Below are positions 2,701-33,799 of a stretch of DNA of 64,000 nt, one piece after another (the first letter of the stretch is position 1; each line of letters opens with the position of its first letter). The stretch is from Zygnema cylindricum (Eukaryota > Streptophyta > Zygnematophyceae > Zygnematales > Zygnemataceae). The DNA lies in the NCBI GenBank assembly GCA_037447655.1, contig JBBHKE010002834.1, positions 159,871-223,870 on the forward strand. Direction: 5' to 3'. The position numbers were made by a program, and so were the translations under genes. Under the pieces are notes generated by a model that worked only from the letters and a program-made list of their open reading frames with translations, was not told where the DNA came from and made no database searches.

Positions 2701-3097
2701 ACCAACATTGTACGGACTATGACGAAAAAAGACGAGAACTATACGGAAAATGTACAAACTGCGGGATATGTAAAATTTATTTTTGTTTATATGTACGGAA
2801 TAGTACGGACGAAAATTCATTAACGATTTTTAAGATTTTTTCAAAAGGTTCAATGCGTTTGTTACGTATAATTTGTTGCGATAAAATCGTTCGCACTAAA
2901 CGCCGTGAACAACTATGCTTTAATACTTATATAAATAATAAAAAATAACAATAATATTAATTTAATTTAATTATTAATAATTATTTCACGTGTGTCCGTA
3001 CCAAGCCATCGTATTTCATCCGTACAGAAACATATAATTTTTACTAGGTGACCGCTCGAGACTCCCAAACAAAATGGGACGCTTAAAAAAAAAAAAA

Positions 3098-3410
3098 TGG
3101 ACGCTCCTCCCTCTCTCCCTCTCTCCCTCTCTCCCTCCCTCTCCTTCCCTCTCCCTCCCTCTCCCTCCCTCCCAACATGCATTTATTTTACAATTTAACA
3201 TCAGATTATTTCCGAGTAAAATTTGAGGGAGTTGTTTTTCTTTATTTCCCATTTACCCCTTTTTTCGAGGTCTCTCCTCCTTTTTTATTTAAGCTTTTGT
3301 GGTCCCCTTTTTTCTTTTCCTCTTTCTTCTCTTCTCTCATTTTATTTATAATTATAATTTTCCTCCTCTTTTCTCTCTTTTCTCCTTTTTTTTCTCTTTT
3401 TTTTCCCTTT
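3098..3410. repeat. Pyrimidine-rich low-complexity tract bordering the bacterial block
   Basis: CTCCCT repeats (about 3,098-3,175), then 3,290-3,410 with long T and CT runs on the plus strand. It ends directly where recognisable bacterial coding sequence begins, so the insertion boundary sits at a poly-pyrimidine tract. Confidence 0.7.
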
Positions 3411-3411
3411 T

Positions 3412-3821
3412 GATATTCGAAAAAGAATTGAGGATAACCCTTGGATAAAAAAAGCCTTAGTGAAAAGAAAGTTACCGGACACGTTATCTGTAACGATTAC
3501 TGAGCGAACGCCAATTGCTATTTGGCAATTTAAGCAAAAATTGTATTTAATTGATGAAGAAGGTAATCGAATCAGCTCAAAAAATGTAGAAAACTTTGGA
3601 GATTTAATACACGTTGTGGGCCAGGATGCAAATGTCTATACTCATAGTCTTTGTGAAGATTTAGAGAAGCATCCTTCTTTGGCAAAAAAAGTTGTTTCTG
3701 CTGTACGTCATGGTCAAAGAAGATGGGATCTAAATCTGAACAGAAAATAAACGTTAAAATGCCGGAAAAGGGCTTTCAAGAGGCTTATGATTATCTAAAA
3801 TCATTAAACAAAAAAGGCAAA
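3412..3821 (+). pseudogene. ftsQ: ftsQ fragment, Rickettsiaceae-like (cell division protein FtsQ)
   Basis: The translation from 3,412 reads as the periplasmic part of FtsQ, the bitopic divisome protein that links FtsB/FtsL to the rest of the septation machinery. It includes the POTRA/beta region with TERTPIAIWQ and LYLIDEEGNRIS. The N-terminal cytoplasmic and membrane segments are missing. The frame stops at 3,748-3,750, but homologous sequence (beginning INVKMPEKGF) continues in another frame from about 3,747, so a single-base shift broke the gene. The match ends near 3,821, short of a natural C-terminus, at the junction with an oppositely oriented gene piece. Bacterial ftsQ normally precedes ftsA, which is absent. 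Family assignment is by recognition; the genus is inferred. Confidence 0.8.
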
Positions 3822-3823
3822 GT

Positions 3824-4192
3824 TGTTGTTTCTCATATTGTCTGCTTTGGACATATTAAAACATGAAGACAGGTTGATATCTATTAACTGATGCAAGTGT
3901 AATATATTCATTTTGTGCATCATAGAATCACGTATAATACCGGCATTGTTAATTAGTACATATACATGTTTTCCTGCATCTTTTATAATTGCAGCAATAT
4001 TCTTTTTACATTCTTCAAAATCTGCTACGTTCCAAGGTCTAACTTTGATCTTATGCTTTTTAGAGAATTCTTCTGCAAGTTGATGATTTTGCTCGAAATT
4101 TGCTATATCCTCGTATCCATTCTCTTTTAAAGCAACTGAAATTGCTGCGCTAATACCCCTTGTTCCACCTGTAATAACAGCTACTTTACAGC
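3824..4192 (-). pseudogene. phbB: Acetoacetyl-CoA reductase-like SDR fragment (phbB-like)
   Basis: The minus strand holds an uninterrupted frame of about 120 codons with no start or stop of its own. It opens with the Rossmann motif VAVITGGTRGIS, where the last Gly of the usual TGxxxGIG is Ser, and later has NNAG followed by IIRDSMMHKM, the classic SDR cofactor-loop pattern. The family reduces acetoacetyl-CoA or acyl-ACP with NAD(P)H. The piece stops before the catalytic Ser-Tyr-x-x-x-Lys region, so it cannot be active. It is fused tail to tail with the ftsQ piece and head to head with the M48 piece. The open frame may reflect its shortness. It could also be a fabG-type reductase; phbB-like is my best reading. 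Confidence 0.75.
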
Positions 4193-4193
4193 T

Positions 4194-4951
4194 AAAATCT
4201 TTGTAATAAATGATGAAACTCCAAATGCTTTTACTGTAGGTGGCTCAATAGTTTTTATTCATAGTGGTTTAATAACAAAATTTCTTGATCTGGATGTGCT
4301 GCGAAGAGTAGCAGCTCATGAAATCGGTCATATATTAGGGCAGCATAAAAGTAGAAGACAGGAAGTGATAGACAATTATAGATTACTTGCTATGGGTAGC
4401 GCAGTACTAGGTCTTGCTACGGCTATAGGTAGTGGATCTCCGGGTATTGCTGTTATGATGGCAAGGAGTCATGTTGCTAAAAGATCAGTCCAGGCATATT
4501 CGAGAACCTTTGAATCTAGTGCTGACCAGATGGCTTTAAAATTGCTTGAAAAAGGCATCACAGTAGTATAGGCATGATCAATTTTTTGAGAAAACAAGAA
4601 TTGATTCAAGGAGCGATTTAGTTAATCCTTATGAACAAACACATCCGCTAAGCCAGGAAAGATTAGTTGTGTTAAAAAACTATAATAAAAAGTCGAAATT
4701 TCATACAAGCCAAAATAATAAAGAGATAATAGACAGGTTTCGTAGAGCCTCAGTAAAATTAGCAGCTTATACGAGAGAGCTAAATATACTGCCGCAATGT
4801 GACTATCAGGAAGGGATAGACGAACTTAACCTCTATACCAAGGCTATAAAATGTTTTAGAACCGGTAATTTTAATAATGCTTTAAAAAATATCGATGTGT
4901 TATTAAAGCAACACCCTAATGACCCTTATTATCATGAGGTAAAAGCTCATT
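4194..4951 (+). pseudogene. M48-family metalloprotease with C-terminal TPR-like part, frameshifted
   Basis: From 4,194 the frame encodes the M48 core: NAFTVGGS, the zinc motif HEIGH at 4,317-4,331, and the third-ligand region ESSADQMA (about 4,513-4,536). A hydrophobic glycine-rich stretch lies between them. This resembles BepA-type periplasmic proteases that process or degrade outer-membrane proteins. The first frame stops near 4,571. Homologous sequence resumes in another frame from about 4,585 (RIDSRSDLVNPYEQTHPLS) and runs through a TPR-like helical part to poly-T at 4,952. The piece therefore has one frameshift, lacks the N-terminal signal region and is truncated at the C-terminus. It is a remnant of bacterial, Rickettsiales-like origin. 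Confidence 0.75.
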
Positions 4952-4966
4952 TTTTTTTTTTTTCCA
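4952..4966. repeat. Poly-T junction between two bacterial fragments
   Basis: A 15-base T run separates the M48/TPR piece from a short leader reading into virB10. The roughly 18 bases before the virB10 start could be the last codons of virB9, which precedes virB10 in Rickettsiales; they are too short to prove it. The run marks either a join or slippage. Confidence 0.5.
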
Positions 4967-4990
4967 ATACCCAAAAAAAGCTAGGTAATT

Positions 4991-5557
4991 ATGGCTAAAG
5001 AGAATAACATTGCAGAACCAGAAAAAGTTCAAACCGATCTTCCCGAAGTTGAGCAAGAATTATCTAAAGTAGCAACGAATCCAAAACAGAGCATAATAAT
5101 TTTGGTTGTGGTTGCTGTGGTTTTTCTCTATTTATTCTTTAACTTATTTGTCGGTTCTGGAGATACTCCAAAACAGACTTCCAATCCGATCCCTGATAAT
5201 GTTGTAAAACCAGTTCAGATTCCTGTTTGTACTACTATTCCGGCTATACCAGCTCCTCCTACTCCTCGAAAACTAGAAGACCCGACATTACCTCCTCCTC
5301 CTCCAGTACCAGCTACTCAAGATGTGATGCCTCCGTCGCTCTTATCTCAAGATAAAACACCTTTGCCGATGCCGGAGAGTTCTAAGGATGTTAATTTGTC
5401 ACCTGCTAATCCAACCCTTCCGCTTGATATAAGATCTCAAAGTGATGAAGCAAAGAAAAAGATAGAAGCAAAAAAAAAATCAACAATACTTTTAATTGCT
5501 GGAGCTCCAAAACCTAAAACACCACAACAGGTAGAACAAGAGACCGATTTTAAGCAT
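4991..5557 (+). pseudogene. virB10: virB10 N-terminal half (type IV secretion), interrupted by a TRIM
   Basis: The frame starts at ATG 4,991 (MAKENN...). It has a short charged cytoplasmic segment, one strong transmembrane helix at residues 34-54 and a proline-rich periplasmic linker at about residues 65-125. This is the VirB10/TrbI architecture: VirB10 spans inner and outer membranes and couples ATP energy to the secretion channel. The frame runs to residue 189 and then enters the LTR of the retroelement at 5,558, where it meets a stop. Skipping 5,558-6,404 (element plus one copy of its duplicated target) continues in frame into the conserved domain at 6,405. The gene was therefore open at this site when the element landed. 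Confidence 0.88.
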
Positions 5558-5804
5558 TGTTGAGGATCGGCAATATTCATCATATCGCATGGGCGCCAAA
5601 GTGAAAACTTTGGTTAAATGGCCAAGCCGGGGATCAAACCCGGTACCTTGTGTTAGACATACACTAGCTCTACCAACTGAGCTACCCGGCCGATTGTGCA
5701 TGCAAGCGCCTGAAACCGAATTTACGGCAATGAACGGCGTACTGGCGGACCAGCATTTACTGCGATACACACGTGTGGAGTCCGAAGTGGACATTCCTCC
5801 AACA
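5558..5804 (-). repeat. TRIM LTR-A (3' copy)
   Basis: 247 bp, TGTTG...CAACA, with imperfect inverted ends. It carries a tRNA-like segment at 5,619-5,691. It differs from the partner LTR at 6,154-6,399 by a handful of mostly transition changes. Confidence 0.85.
5619..5691 (-). other. tRNA-like sequence in TRIM LTR-A (diverged copy)
   Basis: Same cloverleaf-capable segment as at 6,214-6,286, with extra substitutions in the T-arm (including the box B region). Not counted as a functional tRNA gene. Confidence 0.7.
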
Positions 5805-5865
5805 CGCCCCCTCACGATGTACTCCATCTCGTGCGGCTTGCCAACGCCCCCTAGCTCTGATACCA

Positions 5866-6087
5866 TGTTAAGATTCGTAGAATCGGGGGATAGAATGGAC
5901 GATCCGAATAAAGGGATTGATGAGCCGGCCAGGATTTGAAACTGGGACCTTTCACTTTAGCTGCGAACGCACTACCACTGTGCCACCAGCTCACATGTTA
6001 CGGTGGTGGGTCCAATTTTATATAGGTTTTAGTGTGGTTTACACCACAATTCCGGATACTGAGCTGTACATTTTTTGTACGTCAACA
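5866..6087 (-). repeat. TRIM LTR-B, a second LTR type in the middle of the element
   Basis: 222 bp, TGTTGACG...CTTAACA on the minus strand. It is flanked on the upstream side by GAAGGGGGG (polypurine tract) and on the downstream side by TGGTATCAGAGC (primer site), as expected for a genuine LTR. Its sequence is unlike LTR-A except at the very ends, yet it carries its own tRNA-like segment at a comparable position. Confidence 0.75.
5922..5992 (-). other. tRNA-like cloverleaf in LTR-B
   Basis: Minus strand: acceptor GAGCTGG/CCGGCTC (7 pairs, one G-U), D-stem GCAC/GTGC, a 5-bp anticodon stem TTCGC/GTGAA, and T-arm CCAG...CTGG around TTTCAAATC. Box A-like TGGCACAGTGG and box B-like AGTTTCAAATCC match internal Pol III promoter elements. 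Position 33 is not U, so a decoding role is unlikely. Confidence 0.7.
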
Positions 6088-6153
6088 CCCCCCTTCGAGA
6101 GGTAGCCGGTCATAATAGTCCATATAAACCTGGTCCCCCTGGCTTTGACACCA

Positions 6154-6399
6154 TGTTAAGATCGGCGATATTCATCATATCGCATGGGCGCCAAAGTGAA
6201 AACTTTGGTTAAATGGCCAAGCCGTGGATCGAACCCGGGACCTTGTGTTAGACATACACTAGCTCTACCAACTGAGCTACCCGGCCGATTGTGCATGCAA
6301 GCGCCTGAAACCGAATTTACAGCAATGAACGGCGCACTGGCGGACCAGCATTTACTGCGATACACACGTGTGGAGTCCGAAGTGGACATTCCTCCAACA
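6154..6399 (-). repeat. TRIM LTR-A' (5' copy)
   Basis: 246 bp. It is directly followed, in element sense, by the primer site at 6,141-6,153. It contains the better-preserved tRNA-like segment at 6,214-6,286. Confidence 0.85.
6214..6286 (-). other. tRNA-like cloverleaf in LTR-A', anticodon position GTC
   Basis: Minus strand: acceptor GGCCGGG/CTTGGCC (7 pairs with two G-U), D-stem GCTC/GAGC, anticodon stem with four of five pairs and loop ATGTCTA (U33, anticodon GTC), variable AGGTC, T-stem CCGGG/CCCGG around TTCGATC (one change in this copy; intact at 8,882-8,954), and discriminator A. Box A (TAGCTCAGTTGG) and box B (GGTTCGATCC) are near consensus. Its body does not resemble the plant tRNA-Asp I know and it is embedded in an LTR, so I call it tRNA-like. 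Confidence 0.8.
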
Positions 6400-6975
6400 A
6401 GCACAGGGGTGATATGCACCTTATTCTTGGTAAGGGGGAAATGCTGGATGCAATTATTGAGTCTGCATTCAACACAGATTTTGGGGGAGAAATTCGGGCT
6501 ATTATAAGTAGAGATGTTTATTCCGAATGGGGACGTAATATACTTATACCTAAAGGCTCAACAGTGGTTGGTACATATAATACTGGGACTAATGGAGCTT
6601 ACGGCCCCGTTGCAATTGAATGGACAAGAACAGATTTGCCAACGAGGTATACCATAAATTTTGGTGGTACAGGGATGGATAATCTCGGTAGGAAAGGACA
6701 ACAAGGAAGAGTAGACAACAAGTTTAAAGAACGTTTCAGCAATGTTGTGTTAAAATCAACATTTAATATTGCCCTTGCAAGCACCCTGGATTCCATAGTA
6801 AAACCGGTGGAAAGCTTTGTCTTCTTCGACTCAAGCAGCTGCAGTCTCTGCGGCTTTGACCAGCACTACGAGTATTTCTACTCAAGTAGGGCTTACTAAT
6901 ACTCAGAAATTTACGCAAATTTGTGCTGCTTTGACCAGCACTACGAGTATTTCTACTCAAGTAGGGCTTACTAAT
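6400..6975 (+). pseudogene. virB10: virB10 C-terminal domain, copy 1 (truncated)
   Basis: Continues the frame of 4,991-5,557 after the TRIM. It encodes the conserved VirB10/TrbI beta-domain (start HLILGKGEMLDAIIESA, then ISRDVYSEWGRNILIPKGS, then NFGGTGMDNLGRKG), which in the family forms the outer-membrane part of the secretion channel. The frame shifts near 6,812 into a Thr/Ala/Ser-rich repeat region read in a neighbouring frame. Similarity to the second copy ends at about 6,975, where retroelement sequence begins. It is nearly identical to 9,068-9,640 (one coding change seen, Val versus Ile), so the duplication is much younger than the transfer. Confidence 0.85.
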
Positions 6976-6979
6976 AGTC

Positions 6980-8037
6980 TGTCAAAGTTTCTGTTCAGCC
7001 ATCGGTATTTGTGGAAGCTTCCTCTCTTGATTTGTTCTACGATGACTACTGCTGCATCTTCTTCATCTTCAGTACCAGCACTTGTCTCAGAACAACACAA
7101 TCACCCTTGTGAAGGCAAGACTCCCTTGAGTCGATAGCAAAAAGAACCTCTGAATTTGCTCCCTTGTGCAGTAATTTATGGAGGGTCAAAGTTGACCTTT
7201 TGTTCAGAAGCTCTCTAGGAGAGAGGGTCCTATCTACCAATTTTTCTAAGTCCTATCTCTCTCACAAACTGTATATATTGGTGTACAGCACCAATCATAT
7301 TACAGTGCTGTACATAAAAGTACAGCCGCTGGTGTACTTTTTGTACGAAAATTGTACGACATGGCCTAAAAGTCGACACATGTCATATCCGGATTCGGTG
7401 CCGTAATCCCCGGAGATACCGCGATCCAACATAATTTCGCCACGTGTCATCTGGTGTGGCGATGACCATAAACCTCCGAGAATCTCTTCCGCGATCTCGG
7501 CTTTCTTCCGGCCGTCCGATTAAATGCATATTTCAATCGGAGCCGTCATAAACACATGTGCGGTATTTTTTTCGTAAAAGAAACAAAATGCGCGGTACTT
7601 GTTTCTTCTCTTTACCGAAATTTGTATGTTTACATAATGGGATCTATGTTACCGTAAACATCCGTCGCTAAATGAATTTTCCTACGTGGTAACATATAAA
7701 TACAAATAAAACGAAATAGTATGTATCGAAACTTCTAGACTTAATGGCTAAGGCTACCGGCTACCGGCGCTTTGACGGTCGGTAGGTACCAGGATCAAAT
7801 CCTGTCACCGACATACATCTTTTAGTAAATAAACCTTCCTATCTATTAGTTAACTAATCTATTTCCCGTAAACCTTTGGATAGCCTAGGTAGCCATGGCT
7901 CTAGCTTCCTCTCCAACTTCTCAGTGACTGCAACAAGTGTGGGAGTTTGAGAGAGAAGTTAGAGGCAGACTTCCTTGGCTTATTTCTATATTCCAATTTA
8001 AACCAAGAAAATAATAAAATAACCATTGACTTTTACA
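6980..8037 (-). mobile_element. Copia LTR of the C2 family without its internal region
   Basis: The block from about 7,100 onward aligns with the C2 LTR at 24,868-25,910: shared GGCAAGACTCCCTTGAG, GTAGCCATGGCTCTAGC and the CCGGCTACCGGCG core. In element sense it begins TGTAAAAG at 8,037. The other end is less certain (about 6,980, TG). No matching target duplication is visible, so it may be a recombined end, not a clean solo LTR. Confidence 0.65.
7738..7815 (+). other. tRNA-like module in C2-type LTR (antisense to the element)
   Basis: GGCTACCGGCTACCGGCG followed about 30 bp later by GATCAAATCC, resembling an anticodon arm and box B. The same module occurs at 25,614-25,690. Degenerate. Confidence 0.45.
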
Positions 8038-8252
8038 CAAGGGGCATTGGCTTTTATAAAAAAACATATCCATCATACACGCACTAAGTATAGTGATATC
8101 CAATTTCACTTCACTCGTGATAAGATTCTTGATGGCACCGTTTCCTCCTCTCATTGTGCCACAGGCTCTCAACTCGCTGATATTCTCACCAACGCTTTCC
8201 CTCACCCTTATTTCATCATCACATTTTTCATGCTGGTCTTCGTGATTTACCA
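8038..8252 (+). pseudogene. Copia RNase H C-terminal fragment
   Basis: The frame beginning ALAFIKKHIHHTRTKYSDIQFHF matches the end of Ty1/copia RNase H, where host elements have HxRTKHIDIxxHFVRE, followed by a QLADILTNAF-type tail (usually QxADxxTK). Only the last 60 or so residues remain. It is cut on the left by the C2-type LTR. It belongs to a copia family different from C1, C2 and C5. Confidence 0.75.
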
Positions 8253-8271
8253 TGTTTTAATCAAGGGGGGG

Positions 8272-8820
8272 TGTTGAAATTCCATAAAGCATTCTTCACT
8301 ATTTACTCGCTACGCTTTTGGTCTTGTACTACGGTTTAGCGATTTGTATTTTATTTTAGCGAATTGTACATACTTTTGTTAGAGTTGATGATTCTTACGT
8401 AGGAATCTTCATTTTAACTTTGATTCCTTTTAGCATACCTAGATGTACCTTCTTAAGTTACGCCTGGATCAGTTGTTCCTTCTTAGAGCTTTTTTGGCTT
8501 CTCTGTAAAGCCTTTTCGACTACCCTTTATTTTGTCTTACTATAAGACTCCCTTCTGTCTGTGTGTAAATTAATCAAAATCAAAGACACTCAAAACGACA
8601 AACCTCTCACTTGTTCTCTTGTTTATCGTCACTCTCTCTTGTCTTTATTTATCTTGGACTTTTCTTTTCTTTTGGCCTCTCTTTGCTGTTTTGTCTTTTA
8701 GCTTTCTTGGCCTTTAATGACCACATTCAATATATGTCTCCCCCTCTCCTTATTCCTCTCCTCTCCCCTTGTTTTTTTTCTCCCTCTCTTTGCACTCTCT
8801 ATCTTCATCTCCCTCTTCTC
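8272..8820 (+). repeat. Start of the 3' LTR of that copia fragment
   Basis: A polypurine tract (AAGGGGGGG) at 8,264-8,271 is followed by TGTTGAAATTCC, the usual copia 3' LTR junction. The sequence runs about 550 bp with CT-rich stretches and meets a TRIM LTR at 8,821 without a recognisable CA end, so it is probably truncated. Confidence 0.6.
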
Positions 8821-9067
8821 TGTTGAGGATCGGCGATTTTCTATATATCGCATGGGCGCCAAAGTGAAAACTTTGGTTAAATGGCCAAGCCGGGGATCGA
8901 ACCCGGGACCTTGTGTTAGACATACACTAGCTCTACCAACTGAGCTACCCGGCCGATTGTGCATGCAAGCGCCTGAAACCGAATTTACAGCAATGAACGG
9001 CGCACTGGCGGACCAGCATTTACTGCGATACACACGTGTGGAGTCCGAAGTGGACATTCCTCCAACA
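8821..9067 (-). repeat. TRIM LTR-A, third copy, upstream of the second virB10 fragment
   Basis: Nearly identical to LTR-A' (6,154-6,399) except for about the first 30 bp, which differ clearly (TCTATATATCGC in place of CATCATATCGC). Its right flank is the same AGCAC + virB10 as at 6,400. Its left flank is copia LTR, not AGCAT. The breakpoint of the duplication therefore lies in or at this LTR. Confidence 0.85.
8882..8954 (-). other. tRNA-like cloverleaf in TRIM LTR, third copy
   Basis: The best-preserved of the three LTR-A copies: T-stem CCGGG/CCCGG intact, box B GGTTCGATCCC. Same GTC anticodon-loop position. Confidence 0.75.
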
Positions 9068-9520
9068 AGCACAGGGGTGATATGCACCTTATTCTTGGTA
9101 AGGGGGAAATGCTGGATGCAATTATTGAGTCTGCATTCAACACAGATTTTGGGGGAGAAATTCGGGCTATTATAAGTAGAGATGTTTATTCCGAATGGGG
9201 ACGTAATATACTTATACCTAAAGGCTCAACAGTGGTTGGTACATATAATACTGGGACTAATGGAGCTTACGGCCCCATTGCAATTGAATGGACAAGAACA
9301 GATTTGCCAACGAGGTATACCATAAATTTTGGTGGTACAGGGATGGATAATCTCGGTAGGAAAGGACAACAAGGAAGAGTAGACAACAAGTTTAAAGAAC
9401 GTTTCAGCAATGTTGTGTTAAAATCAACATTTAATATTGCCCTTGCAAGCACCCTGGATTCCATAGTAAAACCGGTGGAAAGCTTTGTCTTCTTCGACTC
9501 AAGCAGCTGCAGTCTCTGCG

Positions 9521-9666
9521 GCTTTGACCAGCACTACGAGTATTTCTACTCAAGTAGGGCTTACTAATACTCAGAAATTTACGCAAATTTGTGCTGCTTT
9601 GACCAGCACTACGAGTATTTCTACTCAAGTAGGGCTTACTAATACTCAGAAATTTACGCAAATTTG
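9521..9666 (+). repeat. 75-bp tandem repeat inside virB10, about 2 copies
   Basis: GCTTTGACCAGCACTACGAG recurs at 9,521 and 9,596; the second unit is slightly incomplete. Copy 1 of the gene (6,853 onward) shows the same repeat until it is cut. Confidence 0.85.
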
Positions 9667-9816
9667 TACAACTGTACCTACTGCTATAGCAGATAAAACC
9701 TCAACTCTTTATACTTCTATAAATACAGCTTGTACTACTATACCAGTCCAGATGCTCAGAAACAGAAACTTGCTGCTCTTGTTAGTGCTATCACTACTGC
9801 CTATATTACGGCTTCA

Positions 9817-9924
9817 CAGACAAGTACTGCAAGTACTACTCCATTTCAGACGCAGACAAGTACTGCAAGTACTACTCCATTTCAGACGCAGACAAGTACT
9901 GCAAGTACTACTCCATTTCAGACG
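9817..9924 (+). repeat. 36-bp tandem repeat inside virB10, 3 copies
   Basis: A unit starting CAGACAAGTACTGC repeats at 9,817, 9,853 and 9,889 and encodes QTSTASTTPFQT-like dodecapeptides. It is a multiple of three, so frame-neutral. It lies in the non-conserved linker before the last VirB10 strand. Confidence 0.9.
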
Positions 9925-10088
9925 CAAACATCTACTCAGGCATTTAAGGACATTACCGATGTTGCGAAAGAGTTATTGGAAAAACAGAAATTTGATCCAA
10001 CAATTTCTATAGACCAGGGAACTTTAATCAAGATTTATGTGAACAAAGATTATAAATTTCCTAAAGCAGCAATTAAGAATATAATGAA

Positions 10089-10271
10089 ATGAGGTTTGCA
10101 GCACTAGAAACATATCTATTACCCTTCAAAAATATATTTGCCAAAGAAGGGGTAATGATAAATAAACCAGGAAAGGTTTGGGTTGAAAAAGCCGGAGATC
10201 TTAGAATGGAATCATTACCTGAGATAGATATAGATTATTTATTAGGTCTTGGTAGGTTGAATAAAAAGTAA
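10089..10271 (+). pseudogene. virB11: virB11 N-terminal fragment
   Basis: ATG at 10,089 overlaps the virB10 stop by 4 bases (ATGA), the tight spacing expected in the bacterial virB10-virB11 operon. The product starts MRFAALETYLLPFKNIF and includes MINKPGKVWVEKAGD, the N-terminal domain of the VirB11 hexameric ATPase that powers type IV secretion. Homology stops at about GLGRL (10,258), after which the frame ends by chance at 10,271. The Walker A and other ATPase motifs are absent. This is the right edge of the bacterial block; A/T-rich sequence and a (TA)n tract follow. Confidence 0.85.
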
Positions 10272-10297
10272 AGTAATAAAAAATTAATATTCAAAAC

Positions 10298-10300
<3 letters not shown>

Positions 10301-10384
<84 letters not shown>
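10301..10384. repeat. (TA)n microsatellite
   Basis: An uninterrupted TA repeat of about 84 bp immediately right of the bacterial block. It may mark the repair junction or be later expansion. 10,385-10,800 is A/T-rich with no gene I recognise. Confidence 0.95.
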
Positions 10385-10388
<4 letters not shown>

Positions 10389-10814
10389 GCTTATAATTGA
10401 TTAATTCTTCGCAATCCACGGAAAATTTTGATAAATTGACCACATTAGGAACCCTAAATTTTGCAGACAGAAGTTGGGTACTTTTCATTTTTTGCTTTTT
10501 CAATTTTCATTTATATATATATTTTTTTTCTTCTTCTTTTTTCATTTTGATATTTTTTTTATTTCTTTCTTCCTTTATATATATATATAATATTATAATT
10601 AAAAACAAAAATCAGAAATTCATCCACACTATTTCCGGTGTCTCACCTCAGCGGAAGCCCCCCTCACATAACTGATAAAAGCAGCGATACTTTCTTTCCG
10701 GATTTGGAATCCGATCCACTCTCGATCTCTCCAAAAGGTACGATGTAATGGCGGCTCCAGAAACTCGGCCTTTCTTTTCGAATTAGATTTCAATATGTTT
10801 TCTAAACCGGCTGT

Positions 10815-10945
10815 GAAAAAGAGAGAGGGAGAGAGAGAGGGAGGAGGGAGGAGGGAGGGAGGAAGGTGAAAGGGAGGGAGAGAGGGTGAGAGAGAAGAGG
10901 GAAGGTGAGAGAGAGGGAAGAGAGTGAGGGAGGGAGGGAGAGATG
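10815..10945. repeat. GA-rich purine tract
   Basis: GAGAGGGAGGG-type repeat. Pro/Ser/Leu-rich minus-strand frames here are artefacts. 10,946-11,780 shows no gene; 11,531 begins with GGGTACGTCCCCATGT, like the TIR at 56,216, but I found no partner end nearby. Confidence 0.8.
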
Positions 10946-11781
10946 TCCGAGGGAAATCCGTTTTCACCTGCTGGAGGTGCTAGAGGTAAGAAAGGGGGAG
11001 GACGTTTCGTCAAAAGTACAAATGAGTTTTAAGCTTAAGTTTTTTTACGTTCTATTATAGATGATTTTGATTGGCTATTCGTTTATGGGTTATCATTTTC
11101 AAAAAATTAGTAACAGTTTCAAAAATTTAGTAACAGTACGGATCATTCATTTGCAATACGAGTTCATGTTTCTTCAGTGGGAATTCTGCATTCAGAAAAG
11201 GGTTTCCGGAAAAGAAGATGAGTTACGACAGTTGTCAAGTTTTAACGCACTTGACCGTATGTTTTGTTCGTCGCTACGCTCCAAAAAGTATATTTTGTAG
11301 TGTTGTGTATCGGTGAAAAACTTATCGCGATAACATCGATACCGATAGTTATCGGTTATATAAAGGTCGGAGGTCCCGCTATATCGGTCCGAGAACAACA
11401 AATTCCATATCGGCGATAACTTTAAAAATATATAGTACGCATTTTATTGTACCTTATTATATACTGTATTATACTATTTACATTATATAGCGTGGCATGC
11501 CACGTATACGAATCTGTTCCGTAACTATATAACTAAGGGTACGTCCCCATGTAATCGGTACTTTGATAAAGTATTTTGGACTATAGTGAAGATTCGCCGT
11601 ACTACTTTGAAGAGCGTCCCAATGTGCGAAAATGAAATCAGAACTTTGACATGTGACGGTTGTAGACGTAGGTACAACTTGTGACGATTGAAGGCGACTG
11701 CGAAACTTCCGACGATTGGTGACGCCAACAAAAATAGCGACAGTGGTAGACGTCTAGATTTTTATGATTTCTTCTAAAACC

Positions 11782-12661
11782 TCACACTATGTTTAGTTCT
11801 ATGTAACATAGCTCTAACCATCTCTTGAAGAGTCTTGTTTTTTCTTTCAGCAACTCTATTTGAATCAGGTGAGTAAGCAGCCGTAAATTGTTGCTTAATC
11901 CCTTTTCTTGACAAAAGCTTTTAAAAGCAACAAATTTTCCTTCATTATCTGATCTTACTGCTTTTAACTTTCTATCCGTTTCTTTCTCAGCCATTACAAC
12001 AGATTCTCGAAACTTATATAACGCTTCTGACTTATGTTTCAATAAATATACCCAACTCTTTTGACTATAATCATCCACAATAACAAAAATATACTTATGT
12101 CCTCCTATAATTACTGGTTTGACATCTCCACATAAGTCTACATGAACAAGCTGAAGTGGAGCACTAGCTCTATACTTCACATCTTTTACAGGATGAGGTT
12201 TTCTAATCTGTTTCCCTTTGCTACAACCATTACAACTTTGAACCTTCTCTCCTTGCTACAACCATTACAACTTTGAACCTTCTCTCCTGATACACACTCT
12301 AGTCCTCTTACTGCTGCACTTTTCATCATTTTTTTTATATATGACTCAGAAGTATGACAAAGTCTATGATGCCATAAACTTAGATCTCTTCTTTCAGAAC
12401 TTACAGCATTAATTGAAATTACTGATTTCTGATTGTCTTGTGGTCCAATCCATTTTAACTTACTTTGCATACAATCAGTTACATAACCTTCTCCAAATTG
12501 ATTTCCTTCTCTATCTTGGAATACTATTTTTCCATTTTCAAATGAGGTTACTTTACCACCATTCATTTGTATTTGTGGAACACTAACAAGGTTTACAACT
12601 CCATCAAGAAAATACAAAGTATTGGTCAAATTCACTTTCTTTACAACAACTTGACCATTCA
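11782..12661 (-). pseudogene. Copia element C0: GAG-pre-integrase and integrase core (partial)
   Basis: The minus strand encodes a GAG-pre-integrase zinc region (LSLWHHRLCH ... CNGCSKE) preceded by NLVSVPQI, then after a short duplication and frame change the integrase core with the first Asp in VHVDLCGD and the second in RSDNEGKF. The third catalytic residue region is cut off at the left end and the rest of pol is absent. A 40-bp stretch around the zinc region is tandemly duplicated (12,209-12,288). Integrase would insert the cDNA; here the gene is broken and partial. Confidence 0.8.
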
Positions 12662-12830
12662 TATTCTTAACAGATAAATCTTATCTGACATTTCCCACTG
12701 TATCTATCGGGACAACATGTCCACTAGCAACCGTAATAATTTTAGGAACTATAAGTTTTTTGAAATCTGTAAACAAACTAAGATCACTACAAACATGATG
12801 AGTTGCACCTCAATTAAATCTTTATAACTT
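12662..12830 (-). pseudogene. Copia C0 protease remnant
   Basis: Between Gag and integrase the minus strand reads GATHHVCSDLSLF, the sequence that follows the catalytic DS/DT of copia proteases. The catalytic Asp-Ser position itself is disrupted by a stop. Aspartic protease of the polyprotein, inactive here. Confidence 0.65.
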
Positions 12831-12834
12831 TGAT

Positions 12835-14134
12835 TATAACTTTGACTCCCAAAATTTGCAGAATTGACAACAAAATTTCTATCTTCTTTCATCATCATAG
12901 AAAAGTTTAGAGACTTATCGCCTTGATCGTCATTAAAATCTGAATAGTGGGTTTGATGTCCTCTTCCACGTGATTGTCCAAATCTTCCACCACCTCGTCC
13001 TCGTTGTCTAATTCGACCGCGTCCTCTTTCCGAGGAGTAAGATGATCTTCCTCCATTTCGTTGAAAACACGGAGCACTAACATGTCCCCATTTCCTACAA
13101 ATATTCCGTTGCTTTTCCCTATCTAGACAGTTAGTAGCCATATGTCCTTCCTTATTACACTTATAACAAAAAACATGACTTAGATCACCTTGATCGTTAT
13201 AACCTCTTCCAAAACTTGAATGCTGAGAATTATTTCTACCCCCACTTGATTTAAACCTTCCTCTACCTCCAAGACCACGTAGAGAATATACCGCCACGTA
13301 AAGAATATACCTCAAACGTGTCAGTGAGGTTTACATTACTATTTCCAAATCCTCTACCATCTTTCTCTTTACTTTTCTCTACACCTTTTAGAAGATTAAT
13401 AGCACAATCAAAGGTAGGTTTCTCTGTAGATTTTATGACTTCGATTGTGACATAAAAGCTAGATGGTAATCCATTTAGAAACACAAATACTTTTTCATCC
13501 TCAGGTGGAAATATTCCTGCGCTATTCAACTACTCTATCAAAACATTAAATCTTTTTAGAGCATCATCAATCGACTCATTACTCTTCATCCAAAACTGAA
13601 TAAAGTCCTGAATTACATGATTAGACTTAGTTGCGAATCCTTTCTCATACAAATTTTGTAGATGAGTCCAACAAGCATGAGCTGTATCATGAGTTAACAT
13701 ATGCTCATGAACCGCACTACTACTACTCTGAAGTAAAACAGTCATAGCTGCCATATCTTTAACATCCCACTTGTTCGTTCTTTTTGCATCTAATGGTCTT
13801 TTCTCTTCTCCTGTAAGTATTTTCCACAATTTCTATGAGTAAAGGTTCCTTGAATATATCTCTTCCATACAGGATAATTATTTCCATTAAGCATGATAGT
13901 CTTGGAAGACACCTTATAATCTGACTCTTCATCTGAACACGACTCATCATCATCATAAAAATGAGCTTTGATTTTGGCCTTTTTGACTTTATTTTTGGAA
14001 CTCTCATCATCTCAATTGCCCCCAAAGTTAGGAGTTTTACCAAAATATTGTCCTTCTCTTTTTGCCTTGAGAAATTCGTAAAGTTCCTCCATAGTCGCTG
14101 GATCAAACTGAATTGTGAGACTCTCGTTCGCCAT
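12835..14134 (-). pseudogene. Copia C0 Gag (UBN2/DUF4219-like) with CCHC zinc knuckle
   Basis: ATG at 14,134 (minus) begins MANESLTIQF. The capsid region includes NNYPVWKRY, then ACWTHLQNLYEKG, FIQFWMKSNESIDDALKRF and FLNGLPSSF, the usual order of copia Gag. A nucleocapsid CCHC motif, CYKCNKEGHMATNC, lies at about 13,136-13,180, in an Arg/Gly-rich tail, with a second C-x-WGH-x-C-like motif after it. Several stops and frame changes (about 13,530, 13,830, 14,013) break it. It binds the element RNA and forms particles. This family is clearly different from C1/C2/C5. Confidence 0.8.
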
Positions 14135-14271
14135 TGATAACTTCTCCGATTCTCCAACTCCAAAACTGACTTCAATGTCTTCTTTTTTGCTGAGTATTCC
14201 TCCACCATAACTTATAAACTTTCAATTCTTAATCAATTCTTAACTCAAATATAAGTGGAATGAACACTGCT

Positions 14272-21113: not shown

Positions 21114-22186
21114 AGCTATGGGCCTACCCTCTAGGGTGCCCATATTCAACGGATCTGGGTTTATTTATTGGGAAGCCATGATGAGAGGGGCATTGTGTAA
21201 AAAACGATACTGGGGTATTGTTAGTGGACAAGTGAAACGTCCATCTCAGCGAACTCCAAGGTTTGAATGAGTGAGGTTTTCTGCAGCAGCATCTACTCCA
21301 ACGGAGGAGACTGATGATGCGGAAAGCCGTGTGTCCGAAAAAGGGAAGGAGACACCTCTTACTCCCATTCCCACGGCACCAGGAGCGGTGGCCGTGAATA
21401 CCAAGGAAAACGACATTCAGGTGTGGGAGTACACCAACATGAATGCCAAGCATTTCATTCTGAGGCACCTTACTCAAGCCTTGGCGACCTCTAATCTTCA
21501 CATCTTCAAAGCTGAGGAGCTATGGATGAACTTAGTCGAGATCTATAGAGTTGGTACCATTCAAGAGCTCGAGCTAGCTGAGCAAAGGCTTACCAGTTAT
21601 ACTTACAAGGAAGGGAAGATGTTAGACTACTGCAATGATCTCTCTTGTCTGTACATGGAGATGGAAAGTGGCGGATGGACAGGCACTACGAAGATGAAAG
21701 TTAACACCCTCATCATGAAGTTGCCTGATGAGTATAAAAACATAGTGTACCGAGTAAAGAAATGGATGATAGTTCTTGGAAGTGGAGCACCGTGGTGCGA
21801 ATGATACTCGTGCAGGAGAACACTATTGAGATCCGTAGAGGAGGAAAGAGCGTTCAAGCTCTAGCTGCCGGAACAGAACGGTGGAGGAAGGATCCAAAGA
21901 AACCGTACAATAGCTTCAAAGGGAAGAAGGACCAATATGGAGAGCCTACGGCTCCAAAGGGTGTTTGCCATTTTTGCAAAAAGCCGAGACACTTCATAGC
22001 TAATTGCATCAAGCTGTCGGAGCTGAGGCTTCAAGAAAACCGTGGAGGGGGTACTTCCGGATGGAAGAAGAAAGCACTTGTGGTCACATGAGTGACAAGA
22101 GAGACCGAAGAGGACAAGTCTTCTGAGGAGGAGGATGGGGAGCTCCTTCTTGATGAAAATCTAGAGGAAGAGATCCCTCGGAAGTA
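21094..22186 (+). pseudogene. Copia C1 Gag with CCHC knuckle
   Basis: ATG 21,094 starts MGDTELEAMGLPSRVPIFNGSGF. A stop at 21,268 interrupts an otherwise continuous frame that goes on with the capsid domain (MNAKHFILRHLTQAL ... YKEGKMLDYCNDLSCLYMEMES ... MKLPDEYKNIVYRV). The frame shifts near 21,757 and continues with SSWKWSTVVRMIL and the zinc knuckle CHFCKKPRHFIANC (about 21,966-22,007), then an acidic tail. Gag forms the particle and packages RNA. Translation begins within the LTR-defined region, which is unusual. Broken by at least one stop and one frameshift. Confidence 0.8.
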
Positions 22187-22189
22187 GAA

Positions 22190-24867
22190 GTGTGCCCTTG
22201 GAGCCATTCGAGGATCTCCATAGAAATGATAGATCATCGACTCAAGTGCATCCATGCATATGTGTTTTGACAAGCACCTCTTCACTAAGCGAAGAAATAT
22301 CCCTACTGTAGAAAAAAAGAATGGGGATGGAAGAGTAGTTACCACAGATCTAGTGGGCTCAGTAGATCTGAAAGTCTTAGTAGAGGGTAAGACTTCTATT
22401 CTCACCTTCTCAGATGTGCTCTACATTCCTCCTGAGTTAAAATCTTTTGCATACTTTTGTATTAGATCACAAGGATTTTGATAGCTTCACAAAAAAAGGA
22501 GTCTTTACAGCTAAGTACGGAGATGAAGTCTACTTCACAGCTGATAAAAGTAGCCAAGGAATATTTAGGCTTAACCTGAGTAATTAAAAGAATAGTGCTT
22601 ACTATGGTGGTGTCCCGAGCTTGATGATCTGAATAAGCGGTTCGGGCATGTGCATTTTGATAGGTTGAGGGAAATAAAGAAGCTCGGTGTGGTAGAAGGC
22701 ATTCAGTTTGGGGATAATGAAATGATGGATGATTGTAGTGGTTGTGCCGAAGGTAAGGCTCACGGACTTCCCTTTCCCAAAACTGCCACATATAGAGGTG
22801 AGAAATACTAGATCTGGTCCACACATATATCTGGGGGCTAGCTAGAGTACCTTTGCTTGGGGGGAAGAGGTATATGCTGAAAATTACTGATGATTGGTCC
22901 AGGTATTCCAGGGTCTACTTCTTAAAAACAAAGTCTAAAACACCAAAGTACTTTAAAGAATACAAAGCCTAGAGTGAAAAGCTACATGGAACCCCTAATA
23001 AGCGAATAAGGAGTGGTAATGGGGGGGAGTATACCTCTAACCAGTTTAAGGAATACCTGAGCGATGAGGGATTTCAGCATCAGAAAATTGTACTGTATAA
23101 TCTAGAACAAAATGGAGTAGCTAGGAGGTTAAACCGGACTTTGGGAGAAAGTGTATGCAGTATGTTGGCAGATAAGAAAATAGGAAGAAGATTTTGGGCA
23201 GAAGCCATGAACTATGCTAACTACATTAAGAATAAAGTCCTCACTACAGCTGTCAAAGGAATGACACCTTATGAGAGATGGGTTGGAAGGAAATCGAATA
23301 TTTCTCACTTAAGAGTATTCGGTAGTCAAGTTTAGAGTCTTGATACAGATAAGAAAAACTAGAAACTAGATGTTAAATGGAAACCTGGATATTTTGTGGG
23401 ATATGATGAGGATGTCAAGGGATATATAGTCTATAACTTAGCTAAACAAGATATCATTCTGGTAAAGCATCTAGTTGTCATGGATGAAGGGAAGTCTTTT
23501 GATCCCTTCAAATACACTAAGAAAATCAGAATCAGTTTAGAGTTCGAGAGTGAGGAGGACTTAGATCTTCTCAAAAGGGACACTAGTGGAAACGTGATTG
23601 CAGATTCAAGGGAGATTAAAGATGGGGGAGATATCTCAGAATCCCCTCATGTTTCTACACACTCTGAAGAGAGAGCGGAAGAGGAGCCAGAAGTTGCTTC
23701 CATGGATAGGGGAGATGAAGAGACACAGCGGAGAAATCCAAGACTTCCCACCATTCCAGCTACAGACTTTGAGGGAGGACAGAGGAGCAGCAAACGACTA
23801 CAAGAAAAACAGGCTGCTCACAAGGTAACAAAGCTATCCCACCCAAATGATCCTCAGTCATACTTAGAGGCAACGGACAGTCCGGAGAGAGATAGATGGG
23901 TCAAAGACATAAATGATGAGATGGCTTCAATTATGGAGGCTAATACTTAGGAGATGGTGGACTGTCCTCCAGACAGAAAACCTATCGGGTGCAAATGGGT
24001 ATTTAAATTGAAACTAAACCCTGGTAATACCATTGAGAGATATAAGTCTCGGTTGGTAGGAAAGGGATTCACCCAAAAGGAGGGGATAGATTACGAGGAG
24101 ACTTTTGCTCTGATGGTTCGGTTACCATCTGTAAGGATTCTCCTTAGTCTAGCAGCAGCGCAAGACATGGAAATTCACCAAATGGATATCAAGACCGCTT
24201 TCCTCAACGGTGAACTAGAGGAAGAAATCTTTATAAGACAACTAGAGGGGTTTATAGAGGAAGGAGAAGAGAACAAAATCTGCAAGCTCATAAAGTCTTT
24301 ATATGGACTGAAGCAGGCTCCTAGACAATGGAACAAGAAATTAGATGAGTTTCTCAACGGGCTGGGATATATTCGGATCAGTTGTGACCATTCTATTTAT
24401 ATGTTTGAGAATGAGAATAGAGTGATTTTTATTGCAATTTATGTGGATGATTTGTTGGTGTTAAGTAAATCTTTAGAGAAGATCAATAAGTTAAAGAAAG
24501 ATTTTAAAAACATATTTGACATGAAGGATTTAGGAGAGGCTAAGTATATTTTTGGGATTCAAATGGAAAGAGATAGAGGGAAAAGAATAATTAGACTTAC
24601 TCAAAAGGAAGCTATCGGAAATATGCTTGAGAAATTTCAGATTGAAAAGGCAAACAGTTGTACCACTCCCATGGACTTGAAGAAAGTAACTGATGGGAGT
24701 GTAGAAGGAGGAGTGATAATATTAGATGATCAGATGAGTCTAGAAGAGAGACAGTTTATGAAGTCTATTCTTTAGAGACAGGTGGTAGGAAGTTTCATTA
24801 ACTCTATGAATTGTACTAGGCCGAACATAGCAACAGCAGTTGGAGTCCTTAGTAGGAGTCTTAATTG
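22190..24867 (+). pseudogene. Copia C1 Pol: protease, integrase, reverse transcriptase
   Basis: In order: protease with IIDSSASMHMC (the usual Gly after DS is Ser); GAG-pre-integrase (DRLREIKKLGVVEG ... DCSGCAEGKAH); integrase with many stops and its C-terminal part (FWAEAMNYANYIKN, HLRVFGSQ); linker; then a long RT frame 23,954-24,775 with IGCKWVFKLK, MDIKTAFLNGELEEEI, YGLKQAPRQWNKKLDEF and the catalytic YVDDLL. The RT fingers/palm are intact apart from single stops at 23,950 and 24,775. The frame ends at GVLSRSLN (24,866), where the C2 LTR begins in the opposite direction. RNase H and the 3' LTR are missing. Confidence 0.85.
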
Positions 24868-25910
24868 AAACTCTAAAACCACCATAAGTCCTCAGAGTGG
24901 ACAGCTTCCAAGAAGCCTCTAGGATAACCCTGACCCCTTTGTGTTTCAGCAAAAACAACTGCCACCCTGGCAGACGATAACTCTAACCACCTTCATCCCT
25001 ATAAAGGCAAGACTCCCTTGAGTCGATAGCAAAAAGAACCTCTGAATTTGCTCCCTTGTGCAGTAATTTATGGAGGGTCAAAGTTGACCTTTTGTACAAA
25101 AGCTCTCTTGGAGAGAGGGTCCTATCTCCTAATTTTTCTAAAACCTATTTCTCTCACAGACTCTTTCTACTGATGTACGGAGCCAATCAGATTACTCCTC
25201 CGTACACAAAAGTACAGCTGCCGTTGTACTTTCTGTACGAACATTGTACGACATGGCCTTAATATCAACACGTGGTATATCCGGATTTGCTCCCTTAATC
25301 CTCGGAAATGCCGCGATCCAATGTCATTTCGCCACGTGTCATCCGATGTGGCAATGATAAAAAACCGCCGAAATTCTCTTCTGCGATCTCGGCGTTTAAT
25401 TTCGGCCGTCCGATTAAATTCACATTTAATCGTAGCCGTAATAAATACATGCGCGATATTTGTTTCGGTAAAAAAAAAAATGCGCGGTATTCGTTTCTTA
25501 TCCGTACCGTAATCTGTACTTCTACATTATTGGATCTATGTCTCTCGTAAAACTATTTCAGTTAAATGTTTAATTAATTAACAAACCCTACTTTACGTAA
25601 CATTATCTTTAGGGTTAACGGTTAGAGCTACCGGCTACCGGCGGTTTATCAGTCGGTAGGTTCCAAGTTCAAATCCTGGGGATGGTACATATATTTTAGT
25701 AAACATATTCTTAATTATAAATTAACTTATATTTATATCCCGTAAACCCCTGGATTGCCTAGGTAGCCATGGCTCTAGCTTCCTCTCCAATTTCTCAATG
25801 ATTGTGACAAGTTTGAGAGTTGCGAGAGAAGTTAGAGGTAGACTCCCTCGGCTTTTTTCTTGTTTCTATTCAGACCTAGAAAATACTTTAAAAGACCATT
25901 AATTTCTACA
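24868..25910 (-). repeat. 3' LTR of copia element C2
   Basis: In element sense it starts TGTAGAAATTAATGG right after the polypurine tract AAAGGGAG (25,911-25,918) and ends ...GAGTTTCA at 24,868, directly against truncated C1. Homologous to the C1 and C5 LTRs in arrangement (CTAGAGGCTTC near the end) and to the free LTR at 6,980-8,037. Confidence 0.75.
25614..25692 (+). other. tRNA-like module in C2 LTR (antisense)
   Basis: AACGGTTAGAGC (D-arm-like), ACCGGCTACCGGCGG and AGTTCAAATCC (box B) at tRNA-like spacing; the outer ends TATC.../...GATGGTA pair partly. On the strand opposite to the element. Confidence 0.5.
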
Positions 25911-25923
25911 CTCCCTTTATTTT

Positions 25924-27393
25924 CTAGTCAATCTTTAATTTCAGACCACACTTCTCCCTGCAGAAAATTAGCTTAGGGGAAGGCACAGGTTTGGTCATCA
26001 TATCTGCTACCATCTCACTATCTGGTCGGTACTTTAAATTGATTATTTTGTTTTCTACTTTCTCTCTAACAAATGTGAGTCTAATGTCCATGTGTTTCCC
26101 TTTAAAATGATGTTTAGGATTGGCAGAAATAGCGATTGCTGCCTGATTATCACAAAATATTTTCTGCACACCACTCTTAAGATGACCAAGCTCACCAAGC
26201 ATAGACTTCACCCACATCAATTCTTTTACAGCAGAGCAAGAGGCCATATACTCATCCTCCATGGTGGACTGAGCAATAACTTTTTGTTGTTTGCTACTCC
26301 AATAGCAAGCCCCATCACCTACATATAATACATATCCAGAAGTGCGTCTCTTCATCAGAGCATCACCATAATTGGCATCACTCTAAGTAGTGATGTTAGT
26401 ATTCTCCCCACCCAAATGCAACCATAGATCCCTAGTTCCTATCAAATATCTAAGGACTCTCTTAGCTGCCTCCCAATCCCACTTAGTGGGAACATTTAGA
26501 CTTCTACTCAGCACTTCTACAGTTGCAGCTTAATCCGGCAAGGTACAATTCATAAAATAGATCAAACTTCCCACTACTTGCTTGTAAAGAATAGTCTGCA
26601 TGAACTTCTGTTCTTCATGAGATAATTCCTCGTCTAAGACTATGACTCCTTCTTCCTCACTCCCCTCACTTCCCTTCTTCAATTCCATTTGAGTTGTACA
26701 ACTATTAGCTTTATCCATTTGAAATTTTTCAAGCATGTTTCCGATTGCTTCTTTTAGAGTCAATTTTATAATTTTTCTTTTTCGGTCTCTCTCTATTTGA
26801 ATTCCCAAAATATATTTTGATTCCCCCATATCCTTCATTTCAAATCTCCCCTTAAGATTGGTTTTCAGTTTATTAATTTTTTCCATTGATTTACTTAAAA
26901 CAAGCAAATCATCAACTTTAATTGCAATAAATATAAAACCTTCCTCATCTTCGAAAACATAGATTGAGTGATCTGAGCTAATCTCGATATATCCTAGACC
27001 GGTAAGAAACTCATCAAGCTTCTTATTCCACTGTCGATGTGCGTGTTTCAAACCATAAAGAGATTTAATCAGCCGGCATACCTTACACTCCTCTCCTTCT
27101 TCCACAAACCCTTCGGGTTGTCGCATGAAGATCTCCTCTTCCAATTCTCCATGCAAAAAGGTTATCTTGATGTCCATCTGGTGCACTTTCATGACTACCG
27201 TTGCTGCCAGGCTGAGAAGTATGCGGACGGAGGGAAATCTGACCACCGGGGCAAAGGTTTCCTCATAGTCAATTCCCTCCTTTTGTGTAAATCCCTTTGC
27301 CACTAGTCGGGCCTTGTAGCGCTCGATTGTGTTATCTTGGTTCAGTTTTAATTTGAAAACCCACTTACAACTGATTGGTTTTCAGTTAGGTGG
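25924..27393 (-). pseudogene. Copia C2 reverse transcriptase and RNase H
   Basis: On the minus strand RT (from about 27,390 down to 26,530) has FTQKEGIDYEETFAPVVRF, MDIKITFLHGELEEEI and the catalytic box as IKVDDLL, i.e. the usual Tyr is Lys. It ends in a stop after FMNCTLPD. RNase H follows (26,355-25,924) with SGYVLYVGDGACYWSS, KQQKVIAQSTMEDEYMASC, DNQAAIAI and HMDIRLTFVREKV, ending at the natural C-terminus KLKID just before the polypurine tract. Catalytic D/E/D positions of RNase H are present. Best preserved copia Pol end in the window. Confidence 0.85.
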
Positions 27394-33004: not shown

Positions 33005-33787
33005 GCTGCAGCTGCTGCTCTAGAAGCACTTCAGCTGCACATAAATCTTGTCGCTATTCAACCTATTTCCATAGAAGAGCAAAATTCCCTCGATCCTCAC
33101 ATCAGTTTTTTGGGTAACGGGAAGGGTTCGTTGTTGATCAATGGTATAGCCCCTTCCCTTCCCCTCATAGATACACGTGTAAAGCCGGTGATATTGGGCT
33201 CTAGCTTTACACTCAATCTTGGTCTAACTCTTGACAAGCTTCAGCCCACTTTGACTCGCGTGTTACCATTAGCGGGTACAAATGAGCCGGTCTTAGGAAT
33301 CACTAAGGAACCGCTCGTTTTCAAGTTCTAGAACGGAACAGCCACGCACTTTGCAAAGATCTCGGTTCATGCTCTGGTCACTAAATGTAGTGACTATGAA
33401 TGCCTAGTGGGATAGGGTGTCATATTCGGTGTAGGGGGTGGAGTTGACATGCATGATCAAATATTTTCCTTTAGGCCCTATTACTACCCGGAACGCAAAA
33501 TTTTCATTCCACTAATTTCCGCTGGGAAACCCATGCCGGCCATGGCGCATTTGGCCCCTTTCATTTTTGCATTTTCAGGGAATTCTTTGGGGGCCGAAAT
33601 ATTCCATTCTTTGTCAGCTGAAGAAACTTTGCCTGTTAGTTTTTACTTGCCAGAAATTTTCAGTGACCCAGGATTTCTTATAGATGAGAGGGAATTTGAC
33701 AGCATATATAACCAAATCTTGTCAATTCCACTCTCTCCAAATTCTCCTCCAATCATAATCCTTACAAACTCTTCTGGGTTTTTTTGA
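33005..33787 (+). pseudogene. Ty3/gypsy aspartic protease region
   Basis: Same frame as Gag. LLINGIAPSLPLIDTRVKPVILG aligns with retroviral-type proteases where D-T/S-G is expected; here it reads DTR, with the Gly lost. ECLVG and GVDMHDQIFSFRPYYYPE follow, as typically seen after the protease in plant gypsy elements. Stops at 33,331 and 33,413 and the TGA at 33,785 break it. It would have cleaved the polyprotein; inactive as it stands. Confidence 0.7.
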
Positions 33788-33799
33788 ATTAATTGGAAT

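Follow-up and report, generated by a model that had tools for sequence, protein, structure and literature searches.

Decaying 'Candidatus Megaira'-type DNA associated with a host TIR transposon family at several loci of the Zygnema cylindricum genome

In a 64,000-nucleotide stretch of the Zygnema cylindricum genome (assembly GCA_037447655.1, contig JBBHKE010002834.1, positions 159,871 to 223,870; hereafter the window), we find a block of DNA from a Megaira-type donor, made of two separate segments. The same outer edges occur at three loci of the host genome, and two further loci share the right edge. The reading we favor, with a probability of roughly three in four, is that this is a Pack-TIR-like element carrying endosymbiont DNA, which arose from a single capture, was copied to several loci and is now decaying.

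The initial annotation had placed a block of Rickettsiaceae-like genes at 3412..10260; the block stands, and its edges are refined to 3411 and 10263. It holds decayed ftsQ, phbB, M48 protease and virB9(end)-virB10-virB11(start) sequences, and Pfam and NCBIfam profiles bear out the similarities proposed for ftsQ, a phbB-like SDR, M48, virB10 and virB11. The ftsQ fragment (3411..3820, + strand; residues about 103–236 of 263) matches Pfam FtsQ POTRA (5.7e-10) and FtsQ C-terminal (6.6e-06). The phbB (acetoacetyl-CoA reductase) fragment (3818..4188, − strand) matches Pfam adh_short (1.5e-19) and, under the curated cut-off, NCBIfam AcAcCoA_reduct (7.1e-29), and the frameshifted M48 metalloprotease fragment (4194..4949, + strand) matches Pfam Peptidase_M48 (2.9e-16). 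Beyond a T-rich filler (4950..4961) lie the virB9 end and the first part of virB10 (4962..5556, + strand). A 577-bp stretch of virB10 occurs twice, with 1 difference between the copies: the first comprises the middle of the gene (6399..6976, + strand), and the second continues from the middle to the end of virB10 (9067..10092, + strand), with expanded minisatellites and frame breaks. Both match Pfam TrbI/VirB10 (4e-25 and 7.1e-25). The virB11 start (10089..10263, + strand; 60 aa) matches NCBIfam VirB11 (1.3e-16) and shares with virB10 the 4-base ATGA overlap seen earlier, which we locate at 10089–10092 and find likewise in the Megaira genome.

The closest relative found is 'Candidatus Megaira' of the alga Mesostigma viride (CP084576), and the other near relatives are Rickettsiaceae or Rickettsiales bins, in agreement with the Rickettsiaceae-like origin first suggested. 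Best matches other than Rickettsiales, which had been named as evidence against that origin, were looked for, and there were none. At 8 loci, coding similarity is nearest to Rickettsiaceae. FtsQ has 64 matches (top 93%), and all those that name an organism are Rickettsiaceae; M48 has 62 (top 90%), whose organism-named members are Rickettsiaceae down to 62% identity, while two further matches at 34–37% identity are not. A tree was built for virB10 only. At the DNA level, identity to CP084576 is 95.9% for 3411–3820 (donor 362704–363114), 92.6% for 3818–4188 (364497–364873), 93.0% for 4194–4949 (365194–365951) and 96.6% for 4962–5556 (1294432–1295026). The duplicated virB10 stretches show 91.9% (6399–6924) and 92.1% (9067–9592), and 9593–10263, which is cut at donor position 1296097, shows 82.0% with repeat-length gaps. 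The pieces thus derive from two CP084576 stretches about 928 kb apart, and the T-rich filler lies where they meet (365.95 kb to 1294.43 kb). A search of a viral collection gave no match. A protein search with one LRR ORF gave, among the best 120 of 1166 matches, identities of 28–49% to land plants, bacteria and unnamed sources. A 5-mer scan of the window could not tell bacterial DNA from DNA that is simply AT-rich; in its best region outside the block (18.0–19.2 kb), no gene-like frames were seen by eye.

The block had also been described as bordered and interrupted by retroelements, and within virB10 there is indeed a miniature LTR element (5555..6399, − strand), Helenus-like and multicopy in the host, in which we read by eye three LTRs and two short internal regions. 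As a possible 5-bp target duplication, its borders read AGCAT and AGCAC, compared with AGCAA in the donor (4 of 5 bases agree). A lone LTR of the same kind lies at 8821..9067 (− strand). Between it and the first virB10 copy is host repetitive DNA (6977..8820), which separates the duplicated virB10 stretches and of which 7101–8038 resembles 24993–25911 of the window at 78.5%. ARAGORN reports a tRNA-like sequence in each LTR, and only 8882–8954 reaches the Rfam tRNA gathering score. A candidate PBS and a candidate PPT were read by eye between the LTRs of the 5555–6399 element, and its PBS presumably matches tRNA-iMet. The likeness to Helenus consists of the tRNA-like sequence inside the LTRs and the short, non-autonomous form; the element here differs in having three LTRs and two kinds of tRNA-like sequence, and the sole plant Helenus family given in the available part of PMC10886601 is from Selaginella, with 120-bp LTRs.

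In the host genome (352.8 Mb), the composite occurs with equal outer edges (donor 362704 and 1296097) on C2124, which contains the window, and on C923 and C2570. With the same right edge, C728 carries 1295353–1296097 at its contig start and C1183 carries 1295869–1296097. These five loci are a lower bound on copy number. The phbB-M48 join is identical in the three larger copies, all of which also have the T-rich filler, at varying length. The ftsQ-phbB join is a 1.38-kb deletion, present in the window and C2570 copies and absent from C923.

Outside the bacterial DNA are host arms. In the window the left arm spans 2918..3410, of which 2993–3410 is common to C923 and C2570 and 2918–2992 to C2570 only, and no TIR was found to its left. 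The right arm (10264..11298) is interrupted by a 290-bp insertion at 10312–10601, and its last 142 bp and the TIR are missing. The right arm is assigned to a TIR transposon family, the left arm via its TIR only. The 45-bp TIR forms the left end in C923 and the right end in C2570, C728 and C1183. The right arm has at least 65 matches in the genome (40 scored of 1668 candidates), and at least 18 contigs carry an inverted second TIR no more than about 0.6 kb away; past its first ~48 bases, the left arm was not found at the 12 right-arm loci checked. Matches of 8 bases to the TIR elsewhere were set aside as chance. An exact 3-bp target duplication was seen in 5 of the 7 payload-free copies examined and none exact in the other 2. 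Among payload copies, TAT occurs to the left at C923 and to the right at C2570, which are two different loci. The 300-bp right flanks beyond the TIR in C2570, C728 and C1183 show only chance-level matches to one another, placing the same payload in different genomic contexts.

These unrelated flanks bear on the strongest alternative, which we nonetheless consider unlikely: that one ordinary nuclear insert, comparable to numts or nuclear Wolbachia inserts, lay beside a TIR element and was spread by segmental duplication only, or that the assembly contains diverged haplotypes. The outer flanks of the window locus and C2570 are collinear over 14–21 kb (150003–150225, 153186–154817 and others), as this alternative would have it, and segmental duplication therefore accounts for part of the copying. 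The window copy is also a mosaic, sharing 20 sites with C2570 and 0 with C923 in ftsQ-M48, and 18 with C923 and 1 with C2570 in virB. Moreover, a pair of TIRs was not seen on any payload copy. The window copy lacks both, for which reason we rejected a tidy transposon reading of this copy; to the right of C923 the assembly has a gap, the C728 contig begins within the payload, no left TIR is present in the C2570 DNA examined, and at C1183 other repeats take over after 230 bp of payload. Against duplication alone, homology at C2570, C728 and C1183 ends at the TIR, and the left edge of C923 is likewise the TIR.

The window copy has on its right an intact repeat that we call X (11530..11770), an observation we counted against the transposon-unit reading. 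Next to the TIR at C923 is the left half of X, and next to that at C2570 the right half; since the two flanks are halves of one repeat, both may stem from one insertion.

That symbiont reads were co-assembled with host contigs seems very improbable to us, even though such symbionts inhabit algae, algal read sets have yielded assemblies of them (available part of PMC9098888) and N gaps lie near two loci. The window has no N run, the host multicopy element sits within virB10, the same unnatural joins recur on three contigs, two further contigs share the right edge, and the copies show neutral decay. The element inside virB10 and the recurrence of the joins on other large contigs likewise uphold the transfer from bacterium to host nucleus that the initial annotation had proposed.

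We scored how the copies differ from the donor at 3025 columns, leaving out gapped columns, 8 columns of differing copy states and the virB10 minisatellite columns between aligned blocks. The 86 differences common to the three copies fall 16/12/58 on codon positions (p = 1.5e-10); with this third-position bias, they are largely bacterial. Differences unique to one copy (124; 45/40/39, p = 0.78) are neutral decay after copying, and the 42 found in two copies are distributed similarly (16/14/12, p = 0.75). The insert therefore shows relaxed selection after transfer, and the evenness of the private changes together with the bias of the common ones points to one capture, then copying, then decay. 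When polarised with an outgroup, 19 virB changes fall on the stem that the copies share, at 8/3/8, as if some decay preceded copying; lacking third-position bias, they led us to drop the idea that copying came soon after capture. No methylation mark was seen, as 2 of the 25 C-to-T or G-to-A changes in the insert are at CpG. That the genes were retained for host function is scarcely credible: open stretches persist in parts, but every bacterial piece is truncated, ftsQ, M48 and virB10 are also frameshifted, and private changes are even across codon positions.

On the Pack-TIR-like reading, DNA of a Megaira-type endosymbiont would have entered the host nucleus, where two fragments from distant places on its chromosome would have been joined via the T-rich filler. 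The composite would then have come to lie between the arms of a host TIR transposon whose insertion generates 3-bp target duplications, and transposition would have carried the unit to at least five loci, with segmental duplication and exchange between copies also contributing at the window locus and C2570. The copies no longer have a coding function, and the one in the window has received host retroelements. We infer that capture happened during break repair and that transposase drove the copying, and we lean towards a host DNA transposon having multiplied the Megaira DNA, with break repair in a TIR element taking up two fragments and repeated jumps following. If so, bacterial symbiont DNA turned into a transposon family in its own right, and endosymbiont DNA can spread through a nucleus as transposon cargo rather than patch by patch. 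The copies would also serve as a natural clock of one transfer, layering bacterial changes, a common stem, private neutral changes and host insertions, and the insert would record an association of a plant-type host with Megaira.

Nuclear Wolbachia inserts in insects are likewise decaying endosymbiont DNA in host chromosomes and are multicopy in some hosts; here the host is plant-type, the donor Megaira and the unit TIR-bounded. Rickettsial insertions are known in algal nuclei (Volvox), and in the literature searched we found none that a transposon had amplified. A 9-kb rickettsial insertion lies in the nuclear genome of Volvox carteri EVE (Kawafune 2015, PMC4324946). As the available part of that paper describes it, its donor is also a Rickettsiaceae endosymbiont of green algae, and it too consists of truncated pieces from separate places, including an ftsQ piece, with host multicopy elements inserted. 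It is one region of scaffold 6, whereas the DNA described here lies at several loci with TIR-family arms, and the gene content (virB, M48, phbB) differs. Similar to Pack-TIR and Pack-MULE elements, as far as the available part of PMC8277862 characterises them, the composite has TIR arms around captured DNA and is multicopy with differing flanks. It differs from them in that the payload is endosymbiont rather than host DNA, that both TIRs are not seen on one copy, and that the payload measures about 3–5 kb, compared with the 224-bp median given there for animal Pack-TIR elements.

Profile searches recognised DNA for ftsQ, phbB, an M48 protease, virB10 and virB11 at 3412-10260, all present as the initial annotation had proposed, and all decayed. 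The Rickettsiales affinity that it assigned to them was borne out: of the eight genome loci found for the middle of virB10, seven have Megaira, Rickettsia, Rickettsiaceae or Rickettsiales in their titles and the eighth has Alphaproteobacteria. At 89% in the protein, CP084576, the 'Ca. Megaira' from Mesostigma viride, is the top match; next come a MAG from a lake at 88% and a bin labelled 'Rickettsia sp.' at 82%. In a nine-row protein tree, both window virB10 copies group with the Megaira genome (L002), the sequence used below as virB outgroup (L001) and L003 at 100/100 support. The virB9-virB10 start is identical to CP084576 at 575 of 595 DNA positions; judged from sequence, CP084576 is itself ruled out as the donor strain.

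On the CP084576 chromosome, taken as the donor for coordinates, the ftsQ, phbB and M48 pieces correspond to 362705-363114, 364497-364873 and 365194-365951, in the order and orientation of the window; two intervening stretches are absent from the window, and where ftsQ meets phbB the two pieces overlap by 3 bases. The virB part corresponds to 1294432-1296097, about 928 kb away, and a run of T connects the two segments. According to the available part of PMC4324946, symbionts of this kind carry ftsQ within a roughly 10-kb stretch ending at phbB, a layout with which the ORFs of the donor region (L027) agree under the gene names assigned in this analysis.

All or part of this composite, the payload, occupies at least five loci. 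The VirB10 domain was searched for in the assembly to which the window belongs (352,776,454 bases, 2689 contigs); of five matches, two lie in the window and one each on contigs C923, C2570 and C728. Aligned to the donor, the C923 copy (204462-209032) retains 1.38 kb that the window lost, a deletion the C2570 copy (441871-445136) has in common with the window. The outer edges, 362704 and 1296097, are identical in these three; the C728 copy starts inside virB10 and ends at 1296097, and on C1183 the payload is present as its final 230 bp, beyond which other repeats follow. Filler length aside, the phbB-M48 and M48-virB9 joins match in three copies and the ftsQ-phbB join in two. The longer donor stretch kept on C923 (204462-206607, L022) covers an entire plsC-like ORF, and the M48 piece on C2570 has a 67-bp tandem duplication (442957-443084, L024).

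Payload copies share host sequence on both sides. The left host arm of C923 and the right host arms of C2570 and C728 terminate in the same 45-bp inverted repeat (TIR), as does the right arm of C1183, with 41 of 45 bases. The right arm with its TIR end is a genome-wide family of at least 65 matches (40 of 1668 candidates scored). Most of these stop at the same terminal base, and on at least 18 contigs a second, inverted TIR lies within about 0.6 kb; an exact 3-bp target duplication was found in five of the seven short two-ended copies examined, of 18. Such short members (L044-L050 and right-arm places) span 443-634 bp. The first 36 bases past virB11 were seen in payload copies only, in C2570 and C1183 alone among scored matches and, by local comparison, in the window, C923 and C728. 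The right flanks beyond the TIR at C2570, C728 and C1183 are mutually unrelated. Given the shared arms, TIR ends, family and unrelated flanks, payload plus arms looks like a transposon carrying captured DNA.

This reading has limits. In none of the payload copies were both TIRs seen, and a check of 12 right-arm loci did not find the left arm, TIR excepted. Outside flanks are common to C2570 and the window locus, which means that segmental duplication was also at work. Repeat X (window 11530-11770) lies to the left of the C923 copy and to the right of the C2570 copy; next to the window copy it is intact.

We compared the three copies with CP084576 over 3025 gap-free columns. The 86 differences common to all three (codon positions 16/12/58) bear the mark of purifying selection, and much of this set therefore arose in bacteria; the 124 confined to one copy (45/40/39) and the 42 in two copies (16/14/12) look neutral and arose in the nucleus. 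Polarised with L001, for virB only, the 32 common virB differences comprise 19 on the copies' stem (8/3/8), eight on the donor's side (0/1/7) and five undecided (0/0/5). Judging by its 8/3/8 pattern, the stem probably includes some nuclear decay that preceded copying; taken on its own, this favours a single capture. With the same outgroup, the window copy alone has 58 changes of its own (21/18/19) versus 13 donor changes (1/2/10; Fisher p=0.005). Among the two-copy sites in ftsQ-M48, the partner of the window is C2570 at 20 and C923 at none; in virB it is C923 at 18 and C2570 at one. By this switch of partner, the window copy is a mosaic.

A retroelement does interrupt the bacterial block, as had been noted: virB10 contains an 845-bp Helenus-like miniature LTR element (5555-6399). 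Its at least 78 matches (40 of 1109 candidates scored) are spread over many contigs, which makes it a host element. The LTRs of this element agree with one another at 97-98% and contain tRNA-like sequences (ARAGORN). The available part of PMC10886601 names no plant other than Selaginella. A 577-bp part of virB10 plus one LTR is present twice, with more host repeat between the duplicates; the single difference within the 577 bp indicates either a much more recent event or a duplication made in assembly.

Elsewhere in the window, decayed retrotransposon frames of copia-type look lie on both strands at 11782-14208, 21271-24775, 25924-29564 and 44146-47153 (Pfam on four ORFs), and further frames of retrotransposons lie at 31976-35876, one of which has a reverse transcriptase of RVT_1 type. 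Leucine-rich-repeat ORFs occupy 51358-53729, one with a proline-rich stretch; a protein search with one of them gave distant relatives only, among the matches listed. A near-perfect 57-bp palindrome (98%) lies at 2015-2071.

Among the matches listed from openly licensed literature, we found no endosymbiont DNA borne by a transposon. Already published are a rickettsial insertion in Volvox carteri (PMC4324946) and Pack-TIRs with host DNA as cargo (PMC8277862).
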